Positions 2,452 through 19,538 of a stretch of 22,479 bases of DNA are shown one piece after another. Location of the stretch: positions 1-22,479 of the IMG/VR virus record IMGVR_UViG_3300021957_003578, one strand, 5' to 3'. The stretch comes from a virus. Each line of letters begins with the position of its first letter. Position 1 is the stretch's first letter. The translations under genes were made by a program, and so were the position numbers. The notes below the pieces were generated by a model, which had not been told where the DNA came from, searched no databases, and worked only from the letters and a program-made list of their open reading frames with translations.

Positions 2452-3390
2452 ATGAAAGAAGATTTTTTATGGGTTGAAAAATACAGACCACGAACTATTG
2501 ACGAATGTATTCTGCCGACAGAAACAAAGAAGATATTTCAAGATTTTGTAAATAACAAAGAAATACCAAACTTACTTTTATGTGGTACAGCAGGTGTAGG
2601 TAAAACTACAGTCGCGAAGGCTCTATGTAATGAATTAGACGCAGACTATGTAATGATCAATGGTTCAGAAGAAAGAAACATTGATACTCTCAGAGTTAAA
2701 ATTAAACAGTTCGCTTCTACAGTATCACTAGGTGGTGGTCCTAAGATTGTAATTCTTGATGAAGCAGATTATCTAAACCCTCAATCAACACAACCAGCTC
2801 TCAGAGGATTCATAGAAGAATTTTCTAAGAACTGTAGATTCATCTTTACTTGTAATTACAAGAATAGAATCATTTCACCGTTACATTCAAGATGTAGTGT
2901 TATTGATTTTACGATTGAATCTAGTCAGAAACCTCAGATCGCGGGTGGTATTTTTCAAAGAATACTACAAATTCTGAAAACAGAAAGTATTGAATACAAT
3001 GAACAAGTAGTTGTAGAATTAGTACAGAAGTTCTTTCCGGACTTTAGACGAGTTCTTAATGAATTACAGAAGTATTCAGCGTCTGGTAAGATTGATAGTG
3101 GAGTTCTCGCGAACTTAGATGATGAATCTTTACAAGAAGTATTAGGTTTTATTCGTGACAAAGAATTCTCAAAAATGAGAAAATGGGTAGCGCTAAATAT
3201 ACATAATGATCCACAAGCGATATACAGAAAAATATATGACGCGTTGTTTACTAGAATGGAAAACAGTAGTGTACCTCAAGCGATTATAATATTGAGTGAC
3301 TACACATATAAGTCAGCGTTTGTCGCTGATCAAGAAGTCAATATGGTAGCATGTATGACTGAATTAATGATGGAGTGTAAATTAAATTGA
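2452..3390 (+). CDS. 44: Clamp loader large subunit, AAA+ ATPase, T4 gp44 homologue
   Basis: This is a 312-residue AAA+ ATPase close to the T4 gp44 length. The N-terminal WVEKYRPRTIDE box is diagnostic of clamp-loader/RFC subunits. Walker A is GTAGVGKT (45-52), Walker B IVILDEAD (99-106), sensor 1 FTCN (132-135), and the arginine finger lies in HSRC (Arg147). With gp62 it forms a pentamer that opens and loads gp45 onto primer-template junctions using ATP. In T4, gene 62 follows immediately. Here queD follows through a TTGA overlap and gp62 lies about 5 kb further on, so the T4 gene order is interrupted. Confidence 0.95.
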   Translation: MKEDFLWVEKYRPRTIDECILPTETKKIFQDFVNNKEIPNLLLCGTAGVGKTTVAKALCNELDADYVMINGSEERNIDTLRVKIKQFASTVSLGGGPKIVILDEADYLNPQSTQPALRGFIEEFSKNCRFIFTCNYKNRIISPLHSRCSVIDFTIESSQKPQIAGGIFQRILQILKTESIEYNEQVVVELVQKFFPDFRRVLNELQKYSASGKIDSGVLANLDDESLQEVLGFIRDKEFSKMRKWVALNIHNDPQAIYRKIYDALFTRMENSSVPQAIIILSDYTYKSAFVADQEVNMVACMTELMMECKLN

Positions 3391-3851
3391 AATATAGAGA
3401 AAGAACAGAACTAAGACCATATAGAGTTGTAAAAACATATGGTAATGAAACAGGTCATTCATGTGCTTTCAGACAATGGAGAGCTAACTCACATTGTAAT
3501 TTGATTCACGGATACGCGTTAGGATTCGAAATAACATTTGAATCTTCAACATTGAATGAACAGAATTGGGTTATTGATTTCGGTGATCTAGGATTACTAA
3601 AGAAATATCTAAAAGAAACTTTTGATCATACAACTGTAATAGCTCAAGATGATCCTGAGTATGAAACATTTTTGATGTTAGATAATCTTAATCTAATTGA
3701 CTTAAGAGTAATAGACAATGTAGGTTGTGAAGCTTTCGCTGAGGAAGTATTTAACTTTTGTCAACTACATTTCGAAGACGATAGAGTCAAAGTAAGATCG
3801 GTAAAAGTATTTGAACACGGGAGTAACAGTGCTGTATTCGGAAATTTTTAA
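3387..3851 (+). CDS. queD: QueD-like 6-carboxy-tetrahydropterin synthase
   Basis: A 154-residue member of the 6-pyruvoyl-tetrahydropterin synthase/QueD fold. Visible motifs are SHCNLIHGYAL (nucleophilic Cys37 region and His41), a VIDFGDL strand, a FDHTT motif with the catalytic Asp-His pair, and a terminal KVFEHGSNSAVF with the substrate-anchoring Glu. It converts dihydroneopterin triphosphate from FolE to 6-carboxy-tetrahydropterin. Canonical QueD has HGH as zinc ligands; here the second His is replaced by Tyr (HGY), so the metal site is variant. The start is TTG at 3387, overlapping the gp44 stop (TTGA). No in-frame ATG lies near the N-terminus, and a GGAG sits upstream. Confidence 0.88.
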   Translation: MKYRERTELRPYRVVKTYGNETGHSCAFRQWRANSHCNLIHGYALGFEITFESSTLNEQNWVIDFGDLGLLKKYLKETFDHTTVIAQDDPEYETFLMLDNLNLIDLRVIDNVGCEAFAEEVFNFCQLHFEDDRVKVRSVKVFEHGSNSAVFGNF

Positions 3852-4674
3852 GAGTATTCAAGGTGAAGGTCACTACACAGGTGTACCAACAACTTGGTTG
3901 AGATTCTTTGGTTGTAATTTAGAGTGTAATGGATTCGGACAAGATGATCCGACTGATCCGTCAACATATAAATTACCATACAAAGATTTTGATCTTATTG
4001 ATGTAAAAAATGTAGAAGATTTACCTGTATGGAAATATGGTTGTGATTCATCTTATTCTTGGAGTAAGAAGTTCGCGAAGATTCAAAAAAATGAAAGTTG
4101 TGAAGAAGTCGCGAAAAGACTTTATGATCAAATGTATAATGAAAATACACATATAGCTTTTACTGGTGGTGAACCATTAATGAAAGCTGCTCAGAAGAAT
4201 ACAGTAAAGATTTTAGAAGAAATGGATAGACTGCTTGGTCGTAAAAGATTTACTAACATTACATGGGAGTCAAATGGTACAAGACCGTTGGATTCTATTC
4301 TTCATAACTATCTTCAAAGTATAGAACATACAACAGAGTTTTTCTTTTCAGTCAGTCCGAAATTATGGAGTGTTGCTGGTGAGAAAGAAGGTATTCAACC
4401 AGAGATAGTGAAACAATATCATGATCTATCAGAAGTTGGACAATTAAAATTTGTATGTAATGGTACAGACGAAGCTTGGGACGAGATTGAAGATTCAATC
4501 TTGAAGTTTAGAAAAGTGGGTGTTAATTATCCGATATGGATAATGCCTGTAGGAGCGACAGAAGAATCTCAAGATGAAGTCGCGAAAGAAATAACAATAC
4601 AAACAATGGATAGAGGATACAATGTATCAGCTAGAGTTCATTGTTACATTTTTGGAAATCAGATAGGAACATGA
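3829..4674 (+). CDS. queE: QueE, 7-carboxy-7-deazaguanine synthase (radical SAM)
   Basis: The N-terminal FKSIQGEGHYTG box is the QueE signature, followed by the radical-SAM region with RFFGCNLEC and, much later, KYGCDSSYSW. The [4Fe-4S] cysteines are therefore C29, C33 and C72, a C-x3-C-x38-C spacing. The classic C-x3-C-x2-C loop is broken by an insertion rich in Asp, Pro and Tyr. FTGGEPLM is the SAM-binding GGEP motif. The enzyme turns 6-carboxy-tetrahydropterin into 7-carboxy-7-deazaguanine. I prefer a GTG start at 3829, which has GGGAG five bases upstream and places LYSEIFKSIQGEG at the usual distance. A TTG at 3811 is the alternative. It overlaps queD by 23 bases. Confidence 0.9.
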   Translation: MLYSEIFKSIQGEGHYTGVPTTWLRFFGCNLECNGFGQDDPTDPSTYKLPYKDFDLIDVKNVEDLPVWKYGCDSSYSWSKKFAKIQKNESCEEVAKRLYDQMYNENTHIAFTGGEPLMKAAQKNTVKILEEMDRLLGRKRFTNITWESNGTRPLDSILHNYLQSIEHTTEFFFSVSPKLWSVAGEKEGIQPEIVKQYHDLSEVGQLKFVCNGTDEAWDEIEDSILKFRKVGVNYPIWIMPVGATEESQDEVAKEITIQTMDRGYNVSARVHCYIFGNQIGT

Positions 4675-4922
4675 TAGGAATACCAGACATTATAGGATTG
4701 ATTGGAGTTGTATTACTAATTAGTACATACGCGTTACTTCAATTTGATAGAATTGATCCGAAAGGATTTTGGTATAGTTTTAACAATATGATTGTAGCGA
4801 TACTTGTAACAGTAAGTTTATTATATAATTGGAATTTAGCTAGTATGGTAATCGAAGTGTTTTGGTTTTCATTGAGTGTATATGGTTTACATAAATTTTA
4901 TAAAATGAGGAAAGTGACATGA
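4671..4922 (+). CDS. Small integral membrane protein, CBU_0592-like (83 aa)
   Basis: Three hydrophobic segments span roughly residues 4-22, 33-52 and 55-75, with a conserved-looking SLYNW turn and a final VYGLHKFYKMRK. The layout resembles the small bacterial CBU_0592-type membrane domain (GxxGVxLxxxxY start, hydrophobic core, xYGL+K end); this assignment is from memory. I chose the ATG at 4671 (ATGA overlap with the queE stop) instead of an upstream in-frame ATG inside queE. It sits between queE and queC, so a role near the deazaguanine pathway, for instance precursor passage, is possible but unproven. Confidence 0.75.
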   Translation: MIGIPDIIGLIGVVLLISTYALLQFDRIDPKGFWYSFNNMIVAILVTVSLLYNWNLASMVIEVFWFSLSVYGLHKFYKMRKVT

Positions 4923-5071
4923 TACAAAAAGTAAAAGATCATATTGAACTATGTAGATGTAATTGGAAAACACTATTCGTAGGTAGTTTTGTAATGCACT
5001 TCTTTTTTGATTGGATAGTATTAGGAGTAGGTGTTTTAATCGGAATGCACATAGGACATACACATGGCTAA
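4919..5071 (+). CDS. Small membrane protein with His-rich tail (50 aa)
   Basis: The ATG at 4919 overlaps the previous stop (ATGA) and the reading frame ends at 5071, inside the start of queC. The protein has a polar N-terminal helix with two Cys (LCRCNW), one or two hydrophobic stretches (around 18-44) and a C-terminal GMHIGHTHG that could bind a metal. No family is recognised. The coupled overlaps on both sides are the main argument that it is translated. Confidence 0.6.
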   Translation: MIQKVKDHIELCRCNWKTLFVGSFVMHFFFDWIVLGVGVLIGMHIGHTHG

Positions 5072-5834
5072 TATGATAACAAAAGGTAAAGAACAAGTCA
5101 GAGGTAAATCTGTACTTCTCTTTAGTGGTGGACAAGACAGTCTTATAATTAATCACTTGATGAAACCTGATGTACTTTTAAACATTAGTATGAATTCTAA
5201 TTATGATAAGACTGAAAGAAAAACTTTTGATTCAATCGGTATTGATGAATCGAAGTTAGTCAATCTTGATGATGTAATTGACTTGGGTATTTTTGAAAGG
5301 GACGACGCGATCATTCCAAACAGAAACGCTCATCTTACATTACTAGCTTCTCATTTCGGAGAAACTATATGGTTAGGTTCTGTACATGGGGATAGATCGT
5401 TTGATAAAGACGAAAAGTTTTACACTAGAATGGAAGACTTATTAAATCATATGTGGCAAGCTCAACATTGGACAGAAGAACGAAGATTTACTATTAGTTC
5501 ACCGTTCAAAGATAGAACTAAAACTGATTTAGTAAATGAATATCTTACTTTCGGTGGTAATCAATTATATCTTCTAACATCTTACTCATGTTATGAAGGT
5601 GAAGAACAACATTGTGGTCAATGTAAAGCTTGTTTTAGAAAATGGGTTTCACTTGAAAACAATGCAATAGATACTCGCGGGTATTGGAAAAATGAACCAT
5701 GGGATTCACCATGGTTAGAGAATGTATTGACTTCAATCTATAACGGTGGTTATAGAGGAAAAGAAGATACTGATATTATTAATGCTTTGGATAAGAGTCC
5801 GAGGTATTTTGACTTAGACAAATATAAATTATAA
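5064..5834 (+). CDS. queC: QueC, 7-cyano-7-deazaguanine (preQ0) synthase
   Basis: This 256-residue PP-loop ATPase has the SGGQDS nucleotide motif at 21-26 and a PNRNAHLTLLAS segment around 85-96, corresponding to the QueC PGRN region. A zinc site follows at C176, C184, C187 and C190 (SCYEGEEQHCGQCKAC). QueC converts 7-carboxy-7-deazaguanine plus ammonia to preQ0 with ATP. There is no fused amidotransferase domain of the kind associated with archaeosine-type products. The start at 5064 overlaps the small membrane gene by eight bases. No QueF (preQ0 reductase) gene is visible in the window, so preQ0 or a derivative made elsewhere would be the product used for DNA modification. Confidence 0.9.
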   Translation: MANMITKGKEQVRGKSVLLFSGGQDSLIINHLMKPDVLLNISMNSNYDKTERKTFDSIGIDESKLVNLDDVIDLGIFERDDAIIPNRNAHLTLLASHFGETIWLGSVHGDRSFDKDEKFYTRMEDLLNHMWQAQHWTEERRFTISSPFKDRTKTDLVNEYLTFGGNQLYLLTSYSCYEGEEQHCGQCKACFRKWVSLENNAIDTRGYWKNEPWDSPWLENVLTSIYNGGYRGKEDTDIINALDKSPRYFDLDKYKL

Positions 5835-5848
5835 CGGAGACACAATTT

Positions 5849-6508
5849 ATGAAAACAGATAAAAAATTAGGTAAAGAAGTACAAGAGTACTTGATTAAGA
5901 AAGGTGTAGAAACACCAATAGTAGAAAGTAAACTCAATGAACAAGAAAGAATTGAGTTAATAGAAGACAATATGGAGACTATTATTGATGTACTAGGTTT
6001 AGATCGTGAAGACGATTCAATAGGTGGTACAGCGAATAGAGTCGCGAAGATGTATGTTAGTGAATTATGTTTTGGTCTATCTTATAGTAGATTTCCGAAG
6101 ATATCAGTATTTGAAAATAAGATGAACTATGATTCAATGGTAATACAAAAAGATATTACTTTTCATTCATTATGTGAACATCACTTTGTAAATTTCAATG
6201 GTATGGCTCAAGTAGCTTACATACCGAATGGTAAAGTCATTGGACTTTCTAAGTTAAACAGAGTTGTTAATTTCTTCGCGAGAAGACCTCAAGTTCAAGA
6301 AAGATTGAATGAACAGATATACTTCGCTTTACAATATGTACTTGGTACAGACGATATAGCAGTATTAGTAGAGGCAGAACATTTATGTGTTAAGTCAAGA
6401 GGTATCGGAGATCAGAACTCAGGTATGACAACTTCTAAATTAGGTGGAGCGTTCTTTGAAGACGGTAGACTCAGATCAGAGTTTATGCAACTAGCGAATA
6501 AATCATGA
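5849..6508 (+). CDS. folE: GTP cyclohydrolase I (FolE)
   Basis: A 219-residue protein with all family hallmarks: GGTANRVAKMY (59-69), the zinc and active-site motif SLCEHHF (Cys109, His112), LSKLNRVVNFFARRPQVQERL-type helix around 133-153, and HLCVKSRGIGDQNSGMTT with the second zinc Cys180. It converts GTP to dihydroneopterin triphosphate, the first step of the deazaguanine pathway and of folate synthesis. Here the neighbours queD, queE, queC and a DpdA-like gene make deazaguanine the likely purpose. It has its own GGAG ribosome site about ten bases before the ATG and overlaps the next gene by ATGA. Confidence 0.95.
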   Translation: MKTDKKLGKEVQEYLIKKGVETPIVESKLNEQERIELIEDNMETIIDVLGLDREDDSIGGTANRVAKMYVSELCFGLSYSRFPKISVFENKMNYDSMVIQKDITFHSLCEHHFVNFNGMAQVAYIPNGKVIGLSKLNRVVNFFARRPQVQERLNEQIYFALQYVLGTDDIAVLVEAEHLCVKSRGIGDQNSGMTTSKLGGAFFEDGRLRSEFMQLANKS

Positions 6509-7791
6509 ATTTAGAATATGTAATATCCGGATTAACTATGGGGATTGATGATCTTTATTATAATCCGAAAGTCGCTGCTCCTTATATTCATCACATGAAT
6601 CAAAAGATTTCAGACATGAATAATAAGTATGATGATCAGAATATGTCTATTTTGTTCAACGCTTTGACAGAAAGAAGACATGGTATAACTATGAATGAAA
6701 CAATGGGTGATTCATGGCATCGTATCTTCGCTGACTCTGGTGGGTTACAACTCGCGAGAACACCGACTAAAAACAATGCAGAGACTAGAGACGCGATCTA
6801 CAGACATCAAGCTCAGTATTCTGATGTAGCAATGATCTTTGATGAAATACCGATTGAATATGATCTGTCTCAGACAGGTGGTAATTCAATGAAAGCGGCG
6901 TTAACAGGTCGAAGATTTGTTCGTGATGATGTTATCAAGACAGCAGAAGCGACAAGAGACAATGTAAAGAGACAAATAGAAGTATTCAAAGAAATGGGTT
7001 CTAACACAAAAGTTATGTTGATTTCACAAGGTCAAGATGTAGATTCTTGGAGACAATATATTGAGACAATTTGTCAAGGATTAGATGATGAAGAAATAGA
7101 ACAAATGTGTACAGGTATATGTTTGGGTTCACAATGTAATGGTAATCATTTCGCTCATAGAATGGAAATGATTTATTCATCAAGAGAATATCAAGTACCT
7201 GATTCATTGAGAAAGAATATTCATTTACTTGGAGTCGGTAATCCGAACGCGTTGATGCCTTTTATTGTATCACCTGATTACTTTGATTATATTGAAAACT
7301 TATCTTATGATTCAAGTTCACACGCTTCATCATGGTTCTTTTCAAGATACAGAGATAAGAATTATAATCAGATAACACTAGAAGCACCGTTCAGAACTAA
7401 AAGATTATTATCAGACATTGTTCAAAATGATTTGAAACCTGTGATTGATGATATTATAAATGATCATAGAGAAGCTTTCGCTGAGTATGGTGTTAGTGAT
7501 TCAGATTTTATTATTAATGAATCAACAAAATGGTCTATACATAATGTAGAAAAAGATCGTAAGTTTATTCGACCTGGTGGTGAAGACGCTTACAGATTAT
7601 TAGTATGGTATTGGGTTACAAATACAGTTCAACATTTTATGGACGAGATCAATAGAAGACAACAGAATCCTGTAGATGAAACTGGTTTATCTACAATTAC
7701 TTCTTATGATGAATTTACAAGAAATTGGTTACCTCGACAAAGAGCACCACAAAAAGTACCAGAATATTGGCCAACGAGGTTAGATGTATGA
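6505..7791 (+). CDS. dpdA: DpdA-like DNA-guanine transglycosylase (TGT superfamily)
   Basis: The 428-residue protein has the order of motifs of queuine tRNA-ribosyltransferases in diverged form. These are ADSGGLQ with Asp77 (TGT DSGGFQ), IFDEIP at 111-116, LISQGQD at 173-178 (TGT VQG), GICLGSQCNG at 204-213, HLLGVGNP at 240-247, and YDSSSHAS with Asp269 in the position of the TGT nucleophile (FDxxxPTR). The tRNA-enzyme PTR and the zinc-binding cysteine site are not apparent. This fits DpdA enzymes, which exchange guanine in DNA for a 7-deazaguanine, better than a true tRNA enzyme. Its place directly after folE in a queD-queE-queC-folE run supports DNA hypermodification that protects against host nucleases. 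Confidence 0.85.
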   Translation: MNLEYVISGLTMGIDDLYYNPKVAAPYIHHMNQKISDMNNKYDDQNMSILFNALTERRHGITMNETMGDSWHRIFADSGGLQLARTPTKNNAETRDAIYRHQAQYSDVAMIFDEIPIEYDLSQTGGNSMKAALTGRRFVRDDVIKTAEATRDNVKRQIEVFKEMGSNTKVMLISQGQDVDSWRQYIETICQGLDDEEIEQMCTGICLGSQCNGNHFAHRMEMIYSSREYQVPDSLRKNIHLLGVGNPNALMPFIVSPDYFDYIENLSYDSSSHASSWFFSRYRDKNYNQITLEAPFRTKRLLSDIVQNDLKPVIDDIINDHREAFAEYGVSDSDFIINESTKWSIHNVEKDRKFIRPGGEDAYRLLVWYWVTNTVQHFMDEINRRQQNPVDETGLSTITSYDEFTRNWLPRQRAPQKVPEYWPTRLDV

Positions 7792-11405: not shown

Positions 11406-11707
11406 TGCCTGATTTAATTGAAACCGATCCTACGATTGTACAACTAATTAATGACTATGGATTCCCAATCATACTTGCCGTTGGTATGGGATATTTCATA
11501 TACTATGTTTGGCAATTTATTTCAAACGAATTAGAACCTGAGATTGAAAAGATGCATTTTCAATTAATTAGATTAATAGATCAAGTAAGAATGCTTGATC
11601 AAGACATGATTAGATTACAACAAAAGGTTAATGTTGTATTAGAATATAGAGAAAGACAGAAATTTTTAGAAGAAAACGAAGTCCCTGTAGAACGAAAGAA
11701 GAAATGA
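11405..11707 (+). CDS. Membrane-anchored coiled-coil protein B (100 aa)
   Basis: An N-terminal polar segment is followed by one transmembrane helix (about 19-40, with VGMGYFIYYVW), then a coiled-coil-like helix (about 42-80, LIRLIDQVRMLDQDMIRLQQKV) and a basic end. It starts within a TAATG overlap with protein A and ends with an ATGA overlap with csgF. Similar one-helix proteins with an MIRL-type coil occur in marine T4-like phages (from memory, unnamed). Its position just before csgF suggests a partner role in secretion or an inner-membrane scaffold. Confidence 0.8.
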   Translation: MPDLIETDPTIVQLINDYGFPIILAVGMGYFIYYVWQFISNELEPEIEKMHFQLIRLIDQVRMLDQDMIRLQQKVNVVLEYRERQKFLEENEVPVERKKK

Positions 11708-12276
11708 AAAATCTTATAGATAAAATATTACACACGAAATTTCATATAGCTTGGCCTTTCGGTATATTGGGTGTATTAATAGTAATTTTAATAAGTATAC
11801 TTAGTACAGAGATACGAGCTGATGAACTAACACATAAATTTAAGAGTCCAAGTTTCAGTGGTATTAGTACATCATCTCATTATTTGACGATTGAGAACCA
11901 AGAAAAGTCAAGACGAGATGCTATACAAAAAGACATAGAATCAGCTATATTGGCCGCTCAGAGAGAAGCTGAGAATACTACAATGGCTAAGTTCATGAGG
12001 AATTTAGAAAGTAGAATATATTCACAACTCTCAAAACAGTTAGTAGAATCATTATTTAAACAATGTGATTTAACAATAGATCCAGCGTGTGTACAAGCTA
12101 CATTTGGTAGTTTTGCTTTAGAAGGTAATACAATATCATATCAAAAGACAGCATGTGACACGACAACAATGGAAGGTTGTGTCTTAGGAGAAGAAGTTAT
12201 TGTATTAACGATTATTGATGAAGACGGAACTGAAACAATAATAACAATACCAATAGGTAACGGTACATTTGGGTAG
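11704..12276 (+). CDS. csgF: CsgF-like curli assembly factor
   Basis: A long signal/anchor (residues about 17-34) leads to a likely cleavage after IRA, then DELTHKFKSPSFSG. This matches the mature N-terminus of CsgF (TFQFRNPNFGG), the part that inserts into the CsgG channel as a second constriction. A helical middle (residues 60-115) and a C-terminal beta segment with VIVLTIIDEDGTETIITI complete the usual CsgF plan, in a protein longer (190 aa) than E. coli CsgF (138 aa). Extra features are two cysteine pairs (C-x7-C in CDLTIDPAC and CDTTTMEGC), absent from the E. coli protein. It directly precedes csgG. Confidence 0.82.
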   Translation: MKNLIDKILHTKFHIAWPFGILGVLIVILISILSTEIRADELTHKFKSPSFSGISTSSHYLTIENQEKSRRDAIQKDIESAILAAQREAENTTMAKFMRNLESRIYSQLSKQLVESLFKQCDLTIDPACVQATFGSFALEGNTISYQKTACDTTTMEGCVLGEEVIVLTIIDEDGTETIITIPIGNGTFG

Positions 12277-12281
12277 TGAGT

Positions 12282-13199
12282 ATGTTTAGAAATTTATTTC
12301 TAATATCTCTACTAGGGTTAATGGCTAGTTGTGCTTCTGTAGTACCATTAAATGGTATTGGAGATGAGAACTGTTTAAAAATGGTAGAGTGTGTTGAAGC
12401 ACCGATAACTGTAGAGTTACCGACACATAAGAAATTATTAAATCTACCACCCGCTACAGAAAAACCTGTTATAGCAGTTTATAAGTTTTTAGATAAAACA
12501 GGTCAAAGAAAACAGAAAGGTGACGCTGCTATGTTTAGTACAGCAGTATCACAAGGTGCTGAAACAATGTTAATAGATGCATTGAAAACAGCTGGAGATG
12601 GAAATTGGTTTAGAGTAGTTGAGAGAGTCGGAATAGATCACTTAACTAGAGAAAGACAAATAGTAAGATCAACTAGAGAAGCTTATCAAGACGAAACAAA
12701 GTTAGCTCCTATGTTGTTCGCTGGAATTATTCTTGAAGGTGGGATTATTGGGTATGATACCAATATTGAAACTGGAGGGAGAGGAGCGAGGTATCTCGGT
12801 GTAGGTAGTCAACAAGCCTATCGTAGAGATATAGTAACCGTTCATCTAAGAGCCGTAAGTGTTCTAACAGGTGAAATTTTGTTAAATGTACAGACATCAA
12901 AGACGATTTTATCGGTCGCTCAAGGTTATGATGTTTTTAGATTTGTTGAATTAGATACCCAACTTGTAGAAATAGAAGATGGTATGACCGAGAATGAGAG
13001 TGTAACCAGAAGTGTAAGATCAACGATTGAAGCTGCTGTTTACGAATTAATTCTTCAAGGAGATGAAAGAGGTTTCTGGTCTATTAGATGGCCAGTTAAT
13101 GATGAAATGATTAAAGACGAAGTTCGTGAAATCATGGAAGAAGTTGAAATCATTGTAGTTGAAGAAGAAGAAAAAGAAATAAAGAGGAAAAACAAATGA
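12282..13199 (+). CDS. csgG: CsgG-like outer-membrane curli secretion channel (lipoprotein)
   Basis: A lipoprotein signal (MFRNLFLISLLGLMASC, Cys17 as lipidation site) precedes a CsgG domain that aligns with E. coli CsgG over its length. Matching segments are VAVYKFLDKTGQRK (VSVYNIQDETGQFK), FSTAVSQGAETMLIDALK, WFRVVERVGIDHLTRERQIVR, EGGIIGYDTNIETGG-GARYLG (EGSIIGYESNVKSGGVGARYFG), TGEILLNVQTSKTILS and VFRF. CsgG forms a nonameric beta-barrel that exports unfolded curlin subunits from the periplasm. At 305 aa it has an extra acidic/lysine-rich C-terminus (residues about 270-305) and a C-x5-C pair after the lipid cysteine. I prefer ATG 12282; GTG 12276 is possible. Confidence 0.93.
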   Translation: MFRNLFLISLLGLMASCASVVPLNGIGDENCLKMVECVEAPITVELPTHKKLLNLPPATEKPVIAVYKFLDKTGQRKQKGDAAMFSTAVSQGAETMLIDALKTAGDGNWFRVVERVGIDHLTRERQIVRSTREAYQDETKLAPMLFAGIILEGGIIGYDTNIETGGRGARYLGVGSQQAYRRDIVTVHLRAVSVLTGEILLNVQTSKTILSVAQGYDVFRFVELDTQLVEIEDGMTENESVTRSVRSTIEAAVYELILQGDERGFWSIRWPVNDEMIKDEVREIMEEVEIIVVEEEEKEIKRKNK

Positions 13200-13924
13200 A
13201 GATAATAAATAAATTATTATTCTTTACATTATTAACACCGACATTATTATTCGCTGCAGCGACTACTGATAATGAAATCAAACTTGATCAGATTGGTGAT
13301 ACTCTTACATTAACGATTGATCAGATTGGTTATGGTAACAAAATCTGTGGTACAATATCTAGTGGTATTTGTGGAACAGCTATGGTAATTACTGGTACAA
13401 CTAATACAATTAACATGGATATGATAGGAAACTTGAACCAAATATATGGTCCAATGATTCTTGATCAATCTACTTATAGTGTCAACTTGACAGGTAGTAG
13501 TAATATTTGGGATCAGACTATTGGAGCTTCAGGTTCAGCTGACTCATCAAACTTGTTAGCAACTTGGTCAGGTAGTTCAAATACTATGAACTTAGATTGG
13601 GGAGCAGCTCAATCTTCTGAAAGACTAGATTTTGATTTAGATGTTACAGGTAGTTCTAATGTATTTTCAACTGTTATTGAAGTTGACGATGCTAGATATG
13701 ATGTAGATGTAACAGGTAGTTCAAATGATGTTAATACAAGTATGACTGATGGAGCGTATCATAAAATTGATTTAGAATTAATTCAATCTAGTGGTAATAT
13801 TGATATTGTTCAAAGTTCAGGAACATGCCCTAGTGGTGTAAGTTCGTGTCATAGTGAAATAATAGCGGACTTTGATAGTGAAAATGCTACGATTAATATT
13901 AAACAAAAAGATACTGGCGATTAA
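13196..13924 (+). CDS. Curlin-repeat secreted protein 1 (CsgA/CsgB-like)
   Basis: A Sec signal peptide (MKIINKLLFFTLLTPTLLFAA) is followed by a Ser/Thr/Asn/Gly/Asp-rich chain with degenerate repeats. The clearest are IKLDQIGDTLTLTIDQIGYGN and INMDMIGNLNQIYG, with the curlin Q-I-G-x-x-N spacing. Later repeats use TGSSN instead (VNLTGSSN, DVTGSSN twice). This pattern predicts a stacked strand-turn-strand amyloid fold. Cysteine pairs occur in CGTISSGIC and CPSGVSSC. It follows csgG by ATGA overlap with a GAGG ribosome site, and is the likely first substrate of the channel. Major subunit versus nucleator cannot be decided. Confidence 0.85.
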   Translation: MKIINKLLFFTLLTPTLLFAAATTDNEIKLDQIGDTLTLTIDQIGYGNKICGTISSGICGTAMVITGTTNTINMDMIGNLNQIYGPMILDQSTYSVNLTGSSNIWDQTIGASGSADSSNLLATWSGSSNTMNLDWGAAQSSERLDFDLDVTGSSNVFSTVIEVDDARYDVDVTGSSNDVNTSMTDGAYHKIDLELIQSSGNIDIVQSSGTCPSGVSSCHSEIIADFDSENATINIKQKDTGD

Positions 13925-15044
13925 TCTTTGTCTATTAACTACTTTAGTATACGCTAACGATATAGGTAATATTACTGAACACAATGGTAGTTCAGGTATA
14001 GTAAGAGATTCTGGTGAAACTGTAGAAGGTGGAGTTGGAGAAGATATATTCTTCAAAGATTCTATTGAAACAGCTCAAGGTAGAATGAATATCAAGTTTA
14101 TTGATGAAACAAACTTGAAACTTACAGAGCATACAGAAGTAGTTATAGACGAATATTATTTTGATCCTGATCCTTCAAAGTCTAAAATGACTATGAAGTT
14201 TATATCAGGTACAGCTAGATTCACAACAGGTAGACTAGGATTAGTACCGAAAGAGAATATAGTAATAACAACACCAACAGCGACGATTGGGGTTAGAGGT
14301 ACAAGTTTTACAACTAGTGTTGATGAACTTGGTAGAAGTTTAGTAATACTTTTACCAGAAACAGAATGTACAATAGACGGTGATTGTTCTCCGTCAGGTG
14401 AAATAACAGTTACGAATGAAGGTGGCGTAGTTGTTTTGAATGAAGCGTTTCAGGCTACAATGGTGTCAAGTATGTCTACACCACCAGTACAACCTGTAAC
14501 ATTAGATAACATTATGAATTTAGATTCAATAGACAATATGTTTATTGTTTCACCACCAGCCGAAGTTAAAGAAGCTGAAAATGAAGAAGCTAATTCTCGC
14601 GATGATAGTTCTGACAGTCTCTTAGACTTCAACGATTTAGATATAGATTTCTTAGCAGAAGATTGGGACGACGGTGGAGAAGATTTAGAATTTAATGAAT
14701 TAGATATGGACTTGTTAGATGTAGATTTCTTACAAGATGTTTTAAAACTATTTGAAGAAGTAAATATTCTAAAACAAAAACAGAGAGACAAAGCTGGTGC
14801 TGGTGATACTTCTGGTACAATTATTGGAACAGCGTTAGGATTTGATAAAACTACTCAGTACAATACAATCATAGATGAAGCTTCAGGACAGATATGGTTT
14901 TATAGAGAAGTAAATGGAATCATAGATATAAGAGTACCAATAGAACAAGGTACAAAAATAGAGAGTAATAATGAAGGTGTACAAAATTCAATTATTGTTA
15001 ATGACGGCGATAGTGTCGTTATTATCATTAAACAGTCTGGCTGA
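13884..15044 (+). CDS. FecR-domain secreted protein with acidic C-terminal region
   Basis: A signal peptide (MLRLILNKKILAINLCLL..VYA, cleavage near 24) precedes a FecR domain, residues about 45-165. It contains EDIFFKDSIETAQGRMNIKF, the LKLTEHTEVVID strand, an ISGTARFTTG segment and the hallmark TPTATIGVRGTSF at 130-142. A cysteine pair (CTIDGDC) follows. Residues 235-290 are strikingly acidic with LD/FN repeats, and the C-terminus is a small beta-rich stretch. In bacteria FecR-domain proteins often neighbour CHASE2 cyclases, as here. The first 41 bases overlap curlin 1 in another frame; the signal peptide supports the ATG at 13884 (TTG 13872 possible). Confidence 0.85.
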   Translation: MLRLILNKKILAINLCLLTTLVYANDIGNITEHNGSSGIVRDSGETVEGGVGEDIFFKDSIETAQGRMNIKFIDETNLKLTEHTEVVIDEYYFDPDPSKSKMTMKFISGTARFTTGRLGLVPKENIVITTPTATIGVRGTSFTTSVDELGRSLVILLPETECTIDGDCSPSGEITVTNEGGVVVLNEAFQATMVSSMSTPPVQPVTLDNIMNLDSIDNMFIVSPPAEVKEAENEEANSRDDSSDSLLDFNDLDIDFLAEDWDDGGEDLEFNELDMDLLDVDFLQDVLKLFEEVNILKQKQRDKAGAGDTSGTIIGTALGFDKTTQYNTIIDEASGQIWFYREVNGIIDIRVPIEQGTKIESNNEGVQNSIIVNDGDSVVIIIKQSG

Positions 15045-15786
15045 TCCTAATCATATTCATTTAGATCAAGTCGCTGGTGGTGCTAGTGATAATTTAAATC
15101 TAAATATTGAACAAATCGGTCATGACAACTTGATTAGATTTTCTTTTAATCACAATAACAATACTGTTAATCTTTTACAATTAGGAGATGGAAATTATAT
15201 TGGGTATACTGATGCTTGGGGTTCAGGATATAGTTGGGGTGGTGATTTAGACGGACTAAGAAATAATATGGATATTCGTCAAAAGTGTTCAACTTCAAGT
15301 TGTAATGATAACGATTTTCAATTTCATGTTTGGGGTGATGATAATGTAGTTAAGTTTGGACAAGGATATTCTCTCAACGATAGTACAAGTCCAACATGGA
15401 GTTATGACAGCAACGAACCTGGTGGCAACTTTGTTAGATTAGATATTCATGGTAATAATAATACATTCATCGGAAGTCAAAAGATGGATACATCTGGTAT
15501 TCAACATTCTATTACAGCTAACATCTATACAAACGATAACGAAGTATACGCTAGACAAGCACAGAACGGAAATAAAACATTAACACTTACAATTAGAAAT
15601 TCAAATGGTAATGATGTATCTGTTAATCAAAGAGACAACGGAACTCATACCGCTACAGTAGATTTATTAGGAACACAACCAACAGACTTAACTTTAGTTC
15701 AAAAAGGAAATACTAACCAATCATATACTTTATCTCAAAATTGTGTAACTGTTGGTGGGTGTACAATTAGTGTAACTCAACAATGA
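14971..15786 (+). CDS. Curlin-repeat secreted protein 2
   Basis: A signal peptide (MKVYKIQLLLMTAIVSLLSL..LA, cleavage before DPNH) is followed by repeats such as LNLNIEQIGHDNLI, VNLLQLGDGNYI, VRLDIHGNNNTFI, VSVNQRDNG and LTLVQKGNTNQ. They share the curlin Q/N spacing and end SVTQQ. Cysteine pairs are CSTSSC and CVTVGGC. The middle (residues 70-130) carries Trp/Gly-rich loops not usual in CsgA. It overlaps the FecR gene by 74 bases in a different frame: the ATG at 14971 has AGAG upstream and the overlap encodes the whole signal peptide. It is a probable second substrate of the CsgG channel. Confidence 0.85.
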   Translation: MKVYKIQLLLMTAIVSLLSLNSLADPNHIHLDQVAGGASDNLNLNIEQIGHDNLIRFSFNHNNNTVNLLQLGDGNYIGYTDAWGSGYSWGGDLDGLRNNMDIRQKCSTSSCNDNDFQFHVWGDDNVVKFGQGYSLNDSTSPTWSYDSNEPGGNFVRLDIHGNNNTFIGSQKMDTSGIQHSITANIYTNDNEVYARQAQNGNKTLTLTIRNSNGNDVSVNQRDNGTHTATVDLLGTQPTDLTLVQKGNTNQSYTLSQNCVTVGGCTISVTQQ

Positions 15787-17651
15787 AATTAACTTCAATA
15801 TGGACTTGTATCATAGTCCTTCTTGGTTTAGTTAGTCTAAGAATCTATGATCCAAGTATAGTAGAACAACTCAGAGTAATCAATTTCGATTATTATCAGA
15901 AGTCTGAACCTCAAGTACAAAACGAATCAATAGTTCTTATTGATATCGGAGAACAATCTTTAGAGACATTCGGTCAATGGCCTTTTCCACGACAACAGTT
16001 CGCTCAGTTAATATCTGATTTAAGAAACAGTAATGCTGGTATCATTGGATTCACAACTATGTTCGCTGATGAAGATAGATTTGGTGGTGATCTTGTTTTT
16101 GACTCTTGGATTAAAGATAATGGTATTGTCATGTCATCTACAACTTCAACGAAGGGCTTAGAGAGTATTGCTCCTCATGTAGGAACTGCAACTTTAGGTA
16201 ATGGTGATGCTAATACCTTTGCATATAAGTACAAGTCAGTTGTAAATAATATTTTCTCAAAAAGCTCTGATGGGGCCGGTATGTTATCGTCATCTCCTGA
16301 AGTCGATGGTTCAGTTCGAAGAATACCATTAGTTATCTCAGTAGAAGATAAACTCTATCCAAGTTTTGGTATGGAAGTTGTTCGAGTAATGTCTGGTAAG
16401 AAATCATATACAATGAAAGTAGAAGAAACAGGTATTGAGAACATGAGAATCCCACCATATGAACCTGTAGTAACAGATTATACAGGTTCAATCTATGTAG
16501 ATTGGTCTAATACTTTTGAGAGATATGAGTATGGAGATGTTCAAGGTGAATGGGATAGAACAACAGATTTTCAAGGTAAGACAGTTTTGATTGGAGTAAC
16601 TGCGGAAGGGATATCACCATTAGTAACTACACCAATGGGATTGAAATACCCTCATGATATACAAGCTTCAGTAATTCATACTCTAACAGGTGGTAAACAG
16701 ATTACCAGACCTCAATCCATTCTGTTGGTAGAGGTATGTCTACTGTTTTTCGTGGGACTTCTACTTCTCCTATCCGTTTATTATCTACCGATATGGTTAT
16801 CAGCTGTCGTATTCGGTGGGAGTGTAGTCGGCGTTGTCGCTGGTGGGTTTGAAGCTTTCGCTTACGGAATGTTGTTCGATTTCTCATACGGACTTATCCT
16901 GTTTATACTTCTATTTAGTCATTCGAGCTTTAACAACTTCTATATTAATTTCAAATTAAAACAACAAATTCAAGGTCAGTTCGGAAACTATATATCACCA
17001 GAGTATGTTGATATGATTGTCAAAGATCCAAGTCTAATGAAACTCGGTGGTGAAAGAAAAGAGATGAGTTTTATGTTCGCTGATATTGTAGGATTTACAC
17101 CGATCTCAGAGAGTTATATGGAGAAAGATGATCCAGAAGGATTAGTAGAATTGATCAATGAGTTCTTAGATAAAATGACAAAGATTGTATTGAAGAATGG
17201 TGGTACTATTGATAAGTACATGGGTGATTGTATCATGGCTTTCTGGAACGCTCCAATTCCATGTGAAAATCACGCTGAGATGGCTGTTAAAACATCAATA
17301 GAAATAGAACTTCTAGGTGATGAACTAGAAGAAAAGATGAAAGACATGGGATTACCAAGAGTCAAGTTTGGTACAGGTGTAAACACAGGTGTCTGTATCG
17401 TAGGTAATATGGGTTCAGAAAGTAGAATGGACTATAGTGTTGTCGGTGATGCTGTTAACTTAGGTGCTAGATTAGAAGCTCAAACAAGACAAGAAGATAC
17501 ACCGATCATTGTATCTGAATTTACATACAACGAATGTCCTGATATATCATTCTCAGCTTTGGGTGAAGTTAAAGTAAAAGGTAAAGAACAACCTGTCAAA
17601 ATGTACGCGCCTTTAATTGAAGGTGAAGTTCGTAAGTTATATAAAGACTAA
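15783..17651 (+). CDS. CHASE2-domain class III adenylate/guanylate cyclase
   Basis: The 622-residue protein starts with one membrane helix (about 7-20), then a CHASE2 extracytoplasmic domain (about 25-310: VLIDIGEQSLETFGQWPFPR, GSVRRIPLVI, GKTVLIGVTA). Three membrane helices span 312-380, and a class III cyclase domain covers about 425-605. Catalytic residues are present: metal-binding Asp434 (FADIVGFT) and Asp482 (YMGDCIMAFW), Lys478, Asp556 (VVGDAVNLGARLE), Asn559 and Arg563. The Lys and Asp base-reading pair suggests ATP, giving cAMP. A short linker joins membrane and cyclase, and there is no HAMP domain. It follows curlin 2 by ATGA overlap and closes the operon, so its CHASE2 domain would share the periplasm with the FecR protein and the curlins. 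Confidence 0.93.
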   Translation: MKLTSIWTCIIVLLGLVSLRIYDPSIVEQLRVINFDYYQKSEPQVQNESIVLIDIGEQSLETFGQWPFPRQQFAQLISDLRNSNAGIIGFTTMFADEDRFGGDLVFDSWIKDNGIVMSSTTSTKGLESIAPHVGTATLGNGDANTFAYKYKSVVNNIFSKSSDGAGMLSSSPEVDGSVRRIPLVISVEDKLYPSFGMEVVRVMSGKKSYTMKVEETGIENMRIPPYEPVVTDYTGSIYVDWSNTFERYEYGDVQGEWDRTTDFQGKTVLIGVTAEGISPLVTTPMGLKYPHDIQASVIHTLTGGKQITRPQSILLVEVCLLFFVGLLLLLSVYYLPIWLSAVVFGGSVVGVVAGGFEAFAYGMLFDFSYGLILFILLFSHSSFNNFYINFKLKQQIQGQFGNYISPEYVDMIVKDPSLMKLGGERKEMSFMFADIVGFTPISESYMEKDDPEGLVELINEFLDKMTKIVLKNGGTIDKYMGDCIMAFWNAPIPCENHAEMAVKTSIEIELLGDELEEKMKDMGLPRVKFGTGVNTGVCIVGNMGSESRMDYSVVGDAVNLGARLEAQTRQEDTPIIVSEFTYNECPDISFSALGEVKVKGKEQPVKMYAPLIEGEVRKLYKD

Positions 17652-17711: not shown

Positions 17712-17745
17712 TAGTATTTTCTTAAATATTTCATATAGTTATTTA

Positions 17746-17764
17746 TGTCACATAACTGTCACAT
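17746..17764 (+). repeat. Direct repeat TGTCACAT upstream of an early promoter
   Basis: Two exact copies of TGTCACAT start at 17746 and 17757, 11 bases apart (about one helical turn), ending at the -35 box of the promoter at 17765. The spacing suits two molecules of an activator bound on one DNA face. The binding protein is unknown. Confidence 0.45.
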
Positions 17765-17794
17765 TTGACACCACGGGTACACTTTTTGTATAAT
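17765..17794 (+). promoter_or_regulatory. Sigma70-type promoter P1
   Basis: TTGACA (17765-17770) and TATAAT (17789-17794) with an 18-base spacer match the host sigma70 consensus at all twelve positions. The spacer begins CCACGGGTACA, nearly the same as in promoter P2. The similarity continues from the -35 to about 17806, so the two are copies of one element. A CCRCGG operator directly after the -35 is likely. Confidence 0.8.
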
Positions 17795-17839
17795 ATACAT
17801 AATGAAGTTGAATCTTGATAAGTGGTTGGTTGGTTGAAG

Positions 17840-17962
17840 ATGATAAACGGACATGGAAATGCTGGACCGCGGTCTGGTTGGGAAGTGATGAACACAACTT
17901 CGCGAGGAGGCCTTACCTCATTAAAAAAGCTGAGAGATGAAATTGGGTGTAAAAACCCATGA
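17840..17962 (+). CDS. Possible 40-aa peptide gene between twin promoters
   Basis: The ATG at 17840 opens a 40-codon frame (starts MINGHGNAGPRSGWEVMN, ends DEIGCKNP) about 40 bases after the P1 start point. It is preceded by a possible 11-codon leader frame at 17802-17837. No clear ribosome site is present. The region is richer in G+C and in codons such as CCG, CGG and CGA than its surroundings, and contains a 10-bp palindrome (GACCGCGGTC, 17865-17874) and a TGGGT/ACCCA hairpin (about 17945-17959). It may therefore be a regulatory RNA or operator region instead of a gene. No family is recognised. Confidence 0.35.
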   Translation: MINGHGNAGPRSGWEVMNTTSRGGLTSLKKLRDEIGCKNP

Positions 17963-17968
17963 ATATAG

Positions 17969-17998
17969 TTGATACCGCGGGTACATTTTTGTTATACT
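17969..17998 (+). promoter_or_regulatory. Sigma70-type promoter P2
   Basis: TTGATA (17969-17974) and TATACT (17993-17998) have an 18-base spacer that starts CCGCGGGTACA. The element copies P1 through ACATAATGAA (to 18012). It drives the gene at 18028, which has TAAGGA upstream of its ATG. An 8-base palindrome ATGTACAT lies just after the -10. Confidence 0.75.
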
Positions 17999-18027
17999 AT
18001 GTACATAATGAAAAATAAGGAAAATAA

Positions 18028-18210
18028 ATGAGTTGTCAACATAACGAGATATTACAAGAAAACATCTTAATGAGTGTCTTACATATGGATAAAGTTCAAA
18101 TTGAAGATGAATTAGGACTACCTGTTTCAGAGATGAATACTATGGACTATGATACATTAGTCGATAAATTAGTTGAAAAGAGATTCGAAGAAGACCCAAG
18201 ACAAGCATGA
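18028..18210 (+). CDS. Hypothetical small acidic protein (60 aa)
   Basis: The first gene after promoter P2, with a TAAGGA ribosome site seven bases before the ATG. The protein is helical and acidic (ending KRFEEDPRQA), with a CQHNE start and no catalytic motif. It overlaps the next gene by ATGA. Its place directly behind a host-type promoter suggests early expression. Family not recognised. Confidence 0.75.
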   Translation: MSCQHNEILQENILMSVLHMDKVQIEDELGLPVSEMNTMDYDTLVDKLVEKRFEEDPRQA

Positions 18211-18782
18211 ACAGAGCTGAGTTTATAGAAAAAGAAAATGATCTATTACAATGGATTAAAACTAATCAGAATCTCAATGGTTTTGTAGGTGATATCTATG
18301 ATCAAATTTGTAAGAACAAACCTCTTTCACCTAGACAAATTGAAGGTGTTAGACGAACAATGGTGTATACAAAAAAGAAAGCGAAACAAGATAAGTTAAG
18401 AGAAAGTAATAAAAACATACTTCCAGGTGGAGTTTATGTTGGTACAGAAAAGAAACGATATGATATGACTCTTAAGTATATGAGTAACTATGAAACAAGA
18501 CGAGGGTTTACAGTTCATAATTTTATGAATAAAGAAGGTGCTCAGTTAATGTGTTTCGCTGATATTACACAAATAAGAGTAGATCATGACTTTACTAAAG
18601 GTCCTGATGGAGCTCCACATATATTAAGTGAAGGTGATGTTTTCACTTGTAGGGCTACAGTTAATCGTCATTCAATCAATGACTTTGATCCAAACAACAA
18701 ATTCAAACAAACAGTTTTAAATCGAATCAAGTACAAAAAGTATATTGGTAATAAACAACATTTAGAAGAAGGAAATTTATGA
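18207..18782 (+). CDS. Conserved phage protein, possible OB-fold-like C-terminus (191 aa)
   Basis: Residues 1-65 form a helical region with LSPRQIEGVRRTMVYTKKKAK, which resembles a zinc-free version of the helix-rich N-terminus of phage DNA-associated proteins. Residues about 75-180 are beta-rich (MTLKYMSNYETRRGFTVHNF, VFTCRATVNRHSIND, then KQTVLNRIKYKKY), with a pattern reminiscent of the small OB-like modules in marine T4-like phages that end F.ATVK.H...KQT.LNRV. A nucleic-acid-binding role is a guess. It is coupled by ATGA overlaps on both sides. Confidence 0.7.
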   Translation: MNRAEFIEKENDLLQWIKTNQNLNGFVGDIYDQICKNKPLSPRQIEGVRRTMVYTKKKAKQDKLRESNKNILPGGVYVGTEKKRYDMTLKYMSNYETRRGFTVHNFMNKEGAQLMCFADITQIRVDHDFTKGPDGAPHILSEGDVFTCRATVNRHSINDFDPNNKFKQTVLNRIKYKKYIGNKQHLEEGNL

Positions 18783-19082: not shown

Positions 19083-19538
19083 ATGACTATTAATGAGCAA
19101 ATCTGGAGAGATTTATCTCCATTCACAGTCGGCTTTGATAATGTATTCAATTCATTAGACAGAGTTCGATCAATCCCACAATCTAATTATCCACCTTACA
19201 ATATTCGTAAAGGTAAAGTAGAAGATACTTTTCTTATCGAATTAGCTGTAGCTGGTTTTAGTGAAGATGATTTAACTATTTCAGTTAAAGAAAATAATCT
19301 TACTATTACAGGTGACATAGGTGATAAAGATAATGGATTTATACATCAAGGAATCTCACAACGAAAATTCAACAGGAACTTTGTTCTAGCAGAAGATGTA
19401 GTTGTCAAAGGTTCGGATCTTTCAAATGGTATTCTAACGATTTATGCTGAAAGAGTAGTTCCAGAAGAAAAGAAAGCTAGAACTATTGAAATTGGTGAAC
19501 TAAAGAAAACAGAAAAGAAACAATTCTTATCTGAATAA
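19083..19538 (+). CDS. hsp20: Small heat-shock protein, Hsp20/IbpA type
   Basis: The 151-residue protein contains an alpha-crystallin domain (about 40-135). IELAVAGFSEDDLTISVKENNLTITG is followed by FIHQGISQRKFNRNFVLAEDV, close to IbpA ([20 protein letters not shown]), then LSNGILTIYAERVVPEEKKARTIEI with the final beta strand. An IXI-like C-terminal anchor is not evident. The chaperone holds unfolding proteins and in phages may assist late protein folding. It is a common gene of marine T4-like phages (from memory). A near-perfect AAGGAGGT ribosome site is present, and a terminator follows. Confidence 0.93.
   Translation: MTINEQIWRDLSPFTVGFDNVFNSLDRVRSIPQSNYPPYNIRKGKVEDTFLIELAVAGFSEDDLTISVKENNLTITGDIGDKDNGFIHQGISQRKFNRNFVLAEDVVVKGSDLSNGILTIYAERVVPEEKKARTIEIGELKKTEKKQFLSE

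Follow-up and report, generated by a model that had tools for sequence, protein, structure and literature searches.

The window analysed here is the whole of a 22.5-kb stretch of viral DNA (22,479 nt; virus record IMGVR_UViG_3300021957_003578) that encodes a T4-type clamp loader and RegA. Among its nearest named relatives are Methylophilales phage Melnitz, to which the clamp loader matches at 59%, and Pelagibacter phage HTVC008M, to which the cyclase described below matches at 41%; because these relatives are distant, we infer a SAR11-like host only provisionally. A curli-like operon occupies positions 11704-17651 and comprises genes for CsgF, CsgG, two curlin-repeat-like proteins (recognised by eye), a FecR-domain protein and, as its last member, a CHASE2 adenylate/guanylate cyclase. 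Curli genes in phages have already been described (PMC7029224, PMC9004378), and the cyclase and FecR members of such operons receive little comment in the portions of those papers available to us. Elsewhere in the window, genes for QueD-like, QueE-like and QueC proteins and GTP cyclohydrolase I (3387-7791) adjoin the gene for a 428-aa protein, a member of phrog_10773 that lacks a Pfam match and by eye resembles tRNA-guanine transglycosylase-like DNA-modifying enzymes; together these genes suggest 7-deazaguanine modification of DNA. A SET-domain protein, unusual for a phage, is encoded at 879-1259 (Pfam E 1.6e-12).

The island studied here lies between the cyclase gene, which ends at 17651, and two small genes that are followed by an Hsp20 gene (Table 1). 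An earlier note had described it as a pair of promoters sharing a CCRCGG operator-like element, and had overlooked the conservation and structure of the DNA that separates them.

Table 1. Predicted features of the island and of the genes downstream of it
Feature	Position	Strand	Basis or remark
Pho-box-like element ATGTCAC-ATAA-CTGTCAC, two 7-bp units, 11-bp period	17745-17762	+	repeat search; adjoins first -35
First promoter: TTGACA 17765-17770, ACCACGGGTACA element, TATAAT 17789-17794	17765-17794	+	motif and promoter scan
Predicted structured noncoding RNA, ~163 nt	17801-17963	+	covariation, covariance model, alignments
Helix P0, GAAGU 17804-17808 with ACUUC 17897-17901, closing a multibranch domain	17804-17901	+	pair counting
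Helix P1, AUCUU 17812-17816 with AAGAU 17837-17841, loop with GUUGGUUG repeats	17812-17841	+	pair counting
Open frame of 40 aa inside the RNA	17840-17962	+	open in 16/17 sequences, stop in L062
Helix P2, CUGGAC-CGCG-GUCUGG, containing the third CCGCGG and the palindrome	17862-17877	+	alignment, pair counting
Helix P3, GAGG with CCUC around invariant loop AGGCCUUA	17904-17919	+	alignment, pair counting
Near-invariant unpaired stretch AUUAAAAAAGCUGAGAGAUGAAAU	17920-17943	+	alignment
Helix P4, UGGG with CCCA, loop variable in length and sequence	17944-17959	+	alignment, pair counting
Second promoter: TTGATA 17969-17974, ACCGCGGGTACA element, TATACT 17993-17998	17969-17998	+	motif and promoter scan
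Two small genes, 60 aa and 191 aa, predicted to be served by the second promoter	18028-18782	+	window ORFs
Hsp20 gene, 3' of the two small genes	19083-19538	+	gene annotation

Results

The sequence TTGAYACCRCGGGTACA occurs exactly twice in the window, at 17765 and 17969, 204 bp apart, and the element said to be shared by the two promoters is present at both (TTGACACCACGGGTACA and TTGATACCGCGGGTACA, respectively). Both are good sigma70-type promoters, as had been proposed, reading TTGACA-18-TATAAT (12/12) and TTGATA-18-TATACT (10/12), with transcript starts predicted near 17801 and near 18005. The motif claims of the earlier note likewise held: with up to three mismatches the window contains two matches to TTGAYACCRCGGGTACA where 0.05 is expected, CCGCGG is found twice against an expectation of 0.11, CCRCGG is confined in the 22.5 kb to positions 17771, 17867 and 17975, and the palindrome GACCGCGGTC lies at 17865-17874. 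On these figures a chance origin of the motifs was rejected.

Copies of the motif in related viruses, for which the note had proposed a search and whose absence it had named as counting against its reading, proved abundant, the exact motif being present in 51 stretches of other viral contigs. Sites were collected from the window and loci L001-L070 (minus L052 and L053, which are copies of the window) with at most two mismatches, the selection bearing on the first 17 positions only. The 79 distinct sites so obtained share a -10 box that had not been selected for (T98 A97 T96 A94 M96 T96), and their start region is conserved around ACATAATGAA. Because the aligned copies carry this unselected TATAMT box, the CCRCGG word is, by the alignment, part of a lineage-specific promoter consensus, TTGAnACCRCnGGTACAcTTTT-n2-TATAMT, rather than an operator specific to the island. 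The fifth position of CCRCGG is variable (G 55%, A 30%), and the true word is therefore ACCRCnGGTACA. Both window promoters fit this class, having TTGAnA, the ACCRCnGGTACA block, TATAMT and an 18-bp spacer. A matrix built from such sites found 71 distinct sites in 533 kb, training sites included and L060 and L061 left out, and none in the reversed sequence; for 49 of the 71 an open frame starts within 250 nt downstream. Among 80 loci from more distant cyclase-bearing phages there were 45 loose matches to the motif, of which 39 were listed, and by eye these lacked the -10 box; several of those phages instead have GTTTACA-like -35 boxes with GGTATAAT (by eye). Since the distant matches listed are without a -10 box and several of those phages show another type of -35, the promoter class is, by this comparison, lineage-specific.

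The 204-bp spacing of the promoter pair recurs in L004, L006, L030 and L039. Promoters of this class also stand in tandem, 146-252 bp apart and without the RNA described below, in L010, L014, L023, L034, L035 and L042. The transcript start region of these promoters (17801-17835 in the window) often reads AATGAA, which in most copies of the RNA opens a leaderless frame of 11 codons (by eye; MKLNLDKWLVG for the window).

These alignments bear on the proposal of a switch for early genes in which a repressor would occupy CCRCGG in the two promoters and in the palindrome. The element does lie inside the promoter spacer and is strongly conserved, and some factor may read ACCRCnGGTACA. Against an operator, however, the word belongs to the consensus at 79 distinct and mostly single-promoter sites, and the copy at the palindrome sits at the apex of an RNA hairpin of variable size (P2), where CCGCGG is present in 8 of 17 sequences and lost or altered in the other 9 with hairpin pairing kept. 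Moreover, both promoters point the same way, and the island therefore does not have the shape of a divergent switch. What stands of the original reading is the pair of promoters with an extended element; we consider a repressor-operator switch very unlikely.

The block between the promoters was traced through related contigs. A conserved inner word was found in 23 contigs, and a second word added L062. A covariance model (R1) matched 25 of 69 sources, the window and 24 contigs, at E < 1e-17; L052 and L053 were excluded from this and the other scripted counts. Two of the matches (L003, L017) are cut by the contig end, and these were left out of alignments A1 and A3 together with six exact duplicates (L004, L039, L030, L036, L058, L056), leaving 17 distinct full-length sequences in A3.

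In these 17 sequences five helices comprise standard pairs in 98.5% of 393 cells, and two-sided changes occur at 10 of the 24 pairs (28 cells). None of 500 shuffles reached the observed pairing and covariation values, and 0-2 two-sided pairs remained when the partner was displaced by 1-3 columns. Such changes affect three of the five pairs in P0 and three of five in P1; P3 exists in three forms (GAGG/CCUC, GUCG/CGAC and GUGG/CCAC) around a loop that includes the self-complementary AGGCCU, and P4 retains UGGG/CCCA apart from two exceptions in the last pair. P2 varies in size, and five sequences have it reduced to CU-GAAA-GG or CC-GAAA-GG. Run by itself, RNAalifold proposes P0, P1, P3 and P4, which were first found in this way; P2 was drawn manually using the very sequences later counted, which biases the count in its favour. 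An alternative three-pair hairpin offered by RNAalifold (columns 57-59 with 65-67) competes with P2 and fits all 17 sequences without a two-sided change, and P2 was therefore retained; the two may possibly represent a structural switch.

Folding energies of single sequences were ordinary relative to shuffles (z from -1.3 to +1.1 across the 17; -1.17 for the window), and the minimum-energy structures contained 0 to 15 of the 24 (or 21) consensus pairs. Except for L062 the RNA sequences are close kin, and on a tree of the downstream proteins some states recur in a manner explicable by recombination; the number of independent covariation events is therefore uncertain. With recombination as a caution, compensatory changes exceed the controls, and the block looks like a structured noncoding RNA.

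The block also contains an open frame, and an mRNA for a small protein of about 40-60 aa, structured by chance, could account for its conservation either alone or besides an RNA function. The frame is open in 16 of the 17 sequences, and the linker and P2 change in length by amounts that together make multiples of three. On the other hand, L062 has an in-frame TAG in its only long open frame and retains the helices, the reading frame of the middle segment differs from phage to phage, and length variation in P4 disregards the frame. In a gap-free block of 69 nt the codon variants are 5 synonymous and 11 nonsynonymous, with no synonymous excess and no better than in other frames, and inspection by eye revealed no good ribosome-binding site. 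The 40-aa frame is thus more likely not a gene, and we regard the small-protein explanation as unlikely.

A structured noncoding RNA, our preferred reading of the block, has a constant setting in the lineage. Every full copy has a promoter in front of it, the RNA stands just before the o18207 and Hsp20 genes, and in nearly all copies it is directly upstream of this conserved operon on the same strand. The upstream neighbours in L015, L022 and L059 are genes other than the curli operon, and the RNA is therefore independent of that operon. Where the curli operon would stand, these three contigs encode a large protein rich in Glu and Gln and a small one that is membrane-like.

When Hsp20, rather than the RNA, served as the anchor of a scan, 37 loci were obtained. 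Eighteen of these have 78% identity or more and 1,000 nt or more of upstream sequence; 11 of the 18 carry the RNA (two of them cut) and seven do not (L220, L229, L230, L234, L235, L236, L237). In L230 both promoters are kept, 65 bp apart, and the body of the RNA between them is missing. Eight Hsp20 loci at 48-50% identity have neither the RNA nor the promoter motif upstream of Hsp20. All 80 cyclase-anchored loci were without the RNA by two models (a single R1 match, E 1.4, was discarded), and of the named phage genomes HTVC008M gave no match and Melnitz a best match of E 0.4 only. By this distribution the RNA is accessory.

The divergent copy in L062, the most informative of the relatives, belongs to a phage whose cyclase is 38% identical to that of the window. 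Its RNA shows new compensated pairs in P0, P1 and P2 and is preceded by a different -35/-10 region, with a GTTTACA-like -35 box and GGTATAAT (by eye; a simple promoter scan gave no score). A strong terminator (GGGGGGAAACCCCC and a T run) starts about 25 nt past the RNA, at the end of a gene block, an arrangement that fits a free-standing RNA gene. These observations bear on whether the RNA might instead be a cis-acting leader, a riboswitch or attenuator, of the downstream operon. Its position immediately upstream of that operon on the same strand would suit a leader, as would the finding that no terminator follows the RNA on the + strand of the window. However, transcription from the second promoter, which lies right after the RNA, would leave the RNA out, a terminator and the end of the gene block follow the RNA in L062, and the operon of L230 keeps both promoters without the RNA. 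A leader function is accordingly quite unlikely in our judgement.

The same distribution might be expected of an element acting as DNA, such as a protein-binding array or a mobile insertion, and the clean-looking absence in L230 would agree with this. In contrast, G-U pairs make up 27 of 387 paired cells on the promoter-sense strand, compensatory changes occur in helices with long loops, each full copy is preceded by a promoter, and the L062 copy is followed by a terminator. A DNA-level element is, in view of these features, extremely improbable.

The earlier note had also pointed to a direct repeat at helical spacing upstream of the first promoter. The TGTCACA pair is exact (17746-17763), and TGTCACAT recurs in related phages. 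Its two 7-bp units are CTGTCAT-like and have an 11-bp period, which is the layout of a Pho box; upstream DNA of E. coli pstS, used as a yardstick, has CTGTCATAAAACTGTCAT and ATATAACTGTCAC in the same layout. In the 80 cyclase loci, TGT[CA]ACA pairs within 60 bp comprised 12 distinct cases at 11 bp and at most one at any other spacing. With a looser unit, 1.78 Mb of related phages contained 30 pairs at 11 bp and 0-15 at each of 20 other gaps, and the reversed unit gave a single pair. A Pho-box-like site lies within 110 nt upstream of 8 of the 17 RNA copies, six of them at exactly -56; in L008 the upstream sequence is limited to 54 nt. We read TGTCACAT in the window as a candidate PhoB site. Repeats of TGTCACA or TGTAACA phased at 11 bp are also seen between genes of related phages (L220, L234, L090, L094, L096, L110), sometimes as tandem arrays and sometimes upstream of early-type promoters.

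The RNA had no credible counterpart in the collections searched. Rfam 15 at gathering score returned no match in the whole window, E-value scans of four members gave weak matches alone, far below gathering scores, and a known RNA family was rejected on these scans. ARAGORN found no tmRNA or tRNA gene in the window, and blastn against 50,697 phage records gave no match. The sole match from one pattern scan of 84,980 bacterial species genomes, L071, was judged a chance match because the seed words alone agree. A search for more distant phage homologues with the GUUGGUUG pattern added 48 loci to the set, and no homologue was among them (best E 0.012, no conserved core by eye).

Discussion

We consider it probable that the island is a cassette consisting of a promoter, a small structured RNA gene and a second promoter, with both promoters belonging to a lineage-specific sigma70-type class. 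The promoter class, the covariation, the synteny and the pattern of presence and absence on which this rests are all read from sequence comparisons. The first promoter would direct synthesis, early in infection, of a noncoding RNA of about 163 nt with five conserved helices, and the second would restart transcription for the genes that follow. Our best guess is a trans-acting RNA that serves early on as a regulator or decoy. Partners might be bound at the P1 loop with its GUUGGUUG repeats, at the AGGCCU of the P3 loop and at the unpaired AAAAAAGCUGAGAGAUGAAA stretch, all strongly conserved, and two copies of the RNA may pair with each other through the invariant AGGCCU. PhoB, the phosphate regulator of the host, might boost the first promoter in part of the lineage, perhaps under phosphate stress. 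The fullest form of this proposal, the first member of an undescribed class of accessory phage regulatory RNA that is expressed early, raised by PhoB, dimerised by an AGGCCU kissing loop and directed in trans at RNA of the host or of rival phages, is a speculative one, and we consider it unlikely as a whole.

In the literature consulted, including the available portions of PMC7029224, PMC9004378, PMC10976474 and PMC4796936, we did not find the RNA or the promoter element described, which does not prove that no description exists. We take the RNA to be a new phage family, noncoding and accompanied by a promoter class of its own. Structured RNAs of phages that infect abundant ocean bacteria have been little catalogued, and known methods for middle and late promoters are reported, in the part of the source available, to have failed on pelagimyophages (PMC7029224). 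The analysis yields a covariance model that defines the RNA family, a promoter motif of the lineage that lends itself to immediate mapping, and a natural relative without the RNA, and it suggests that phosphate stress of the host may be connected with the expression of phage genes.

The window repeat resembles the E. coli Pho box in its two 7-bp units, 11-bp period and A/T-rich gap. PhoB control of cyanophage genes has been reported, and the cyanobacterial Pho box, as given in the accessible text (PMC10976474), has a consensus different from that of the window repeat, at which PhoB may bind.

Phage phi29 pRNA and other phage small RNAs carry loops that could pair between copies, and the present RNA is likewise a small phage RNA with loops potentially pairing between copies; nothing here points to a role in packaging. 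Melnitz encodes a tmRNA and a glutamine riboswitch, and from the part of that report available these are, like the RNA of the window, structured RNAs of a marine T4-like phage placed right after an early promoter (PMC9004378). Unlike them, the window RNA has no Rfam or ARAGORN match, and it is absent from the Melnitz genome.

T4-type sigma70 early promoters are read by host RNA polymerase through their -35 and -10 boxes and have conserved words beyond the hexamers. The promoters of this lineage resemble them in both respects, and are distinguished by TTGAnACCRCnGGTACA where related curli phages and L062 by eye show GTTTACA-like boxes with GGTATAAT. In the MotA-dependent middle promoters of T4, a conserved word is located upstream of a sigma70 -10 box. 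The MotA box is quoted, in the text available, as TGCTTtA and as replacing the -35 (PMC9004378); by eye none lies upstream of either -10 box in the window, where TTGACA and TTGATA stand instead, and the lineage element thus differs from it in sequence and retains the TTGA of the -35.
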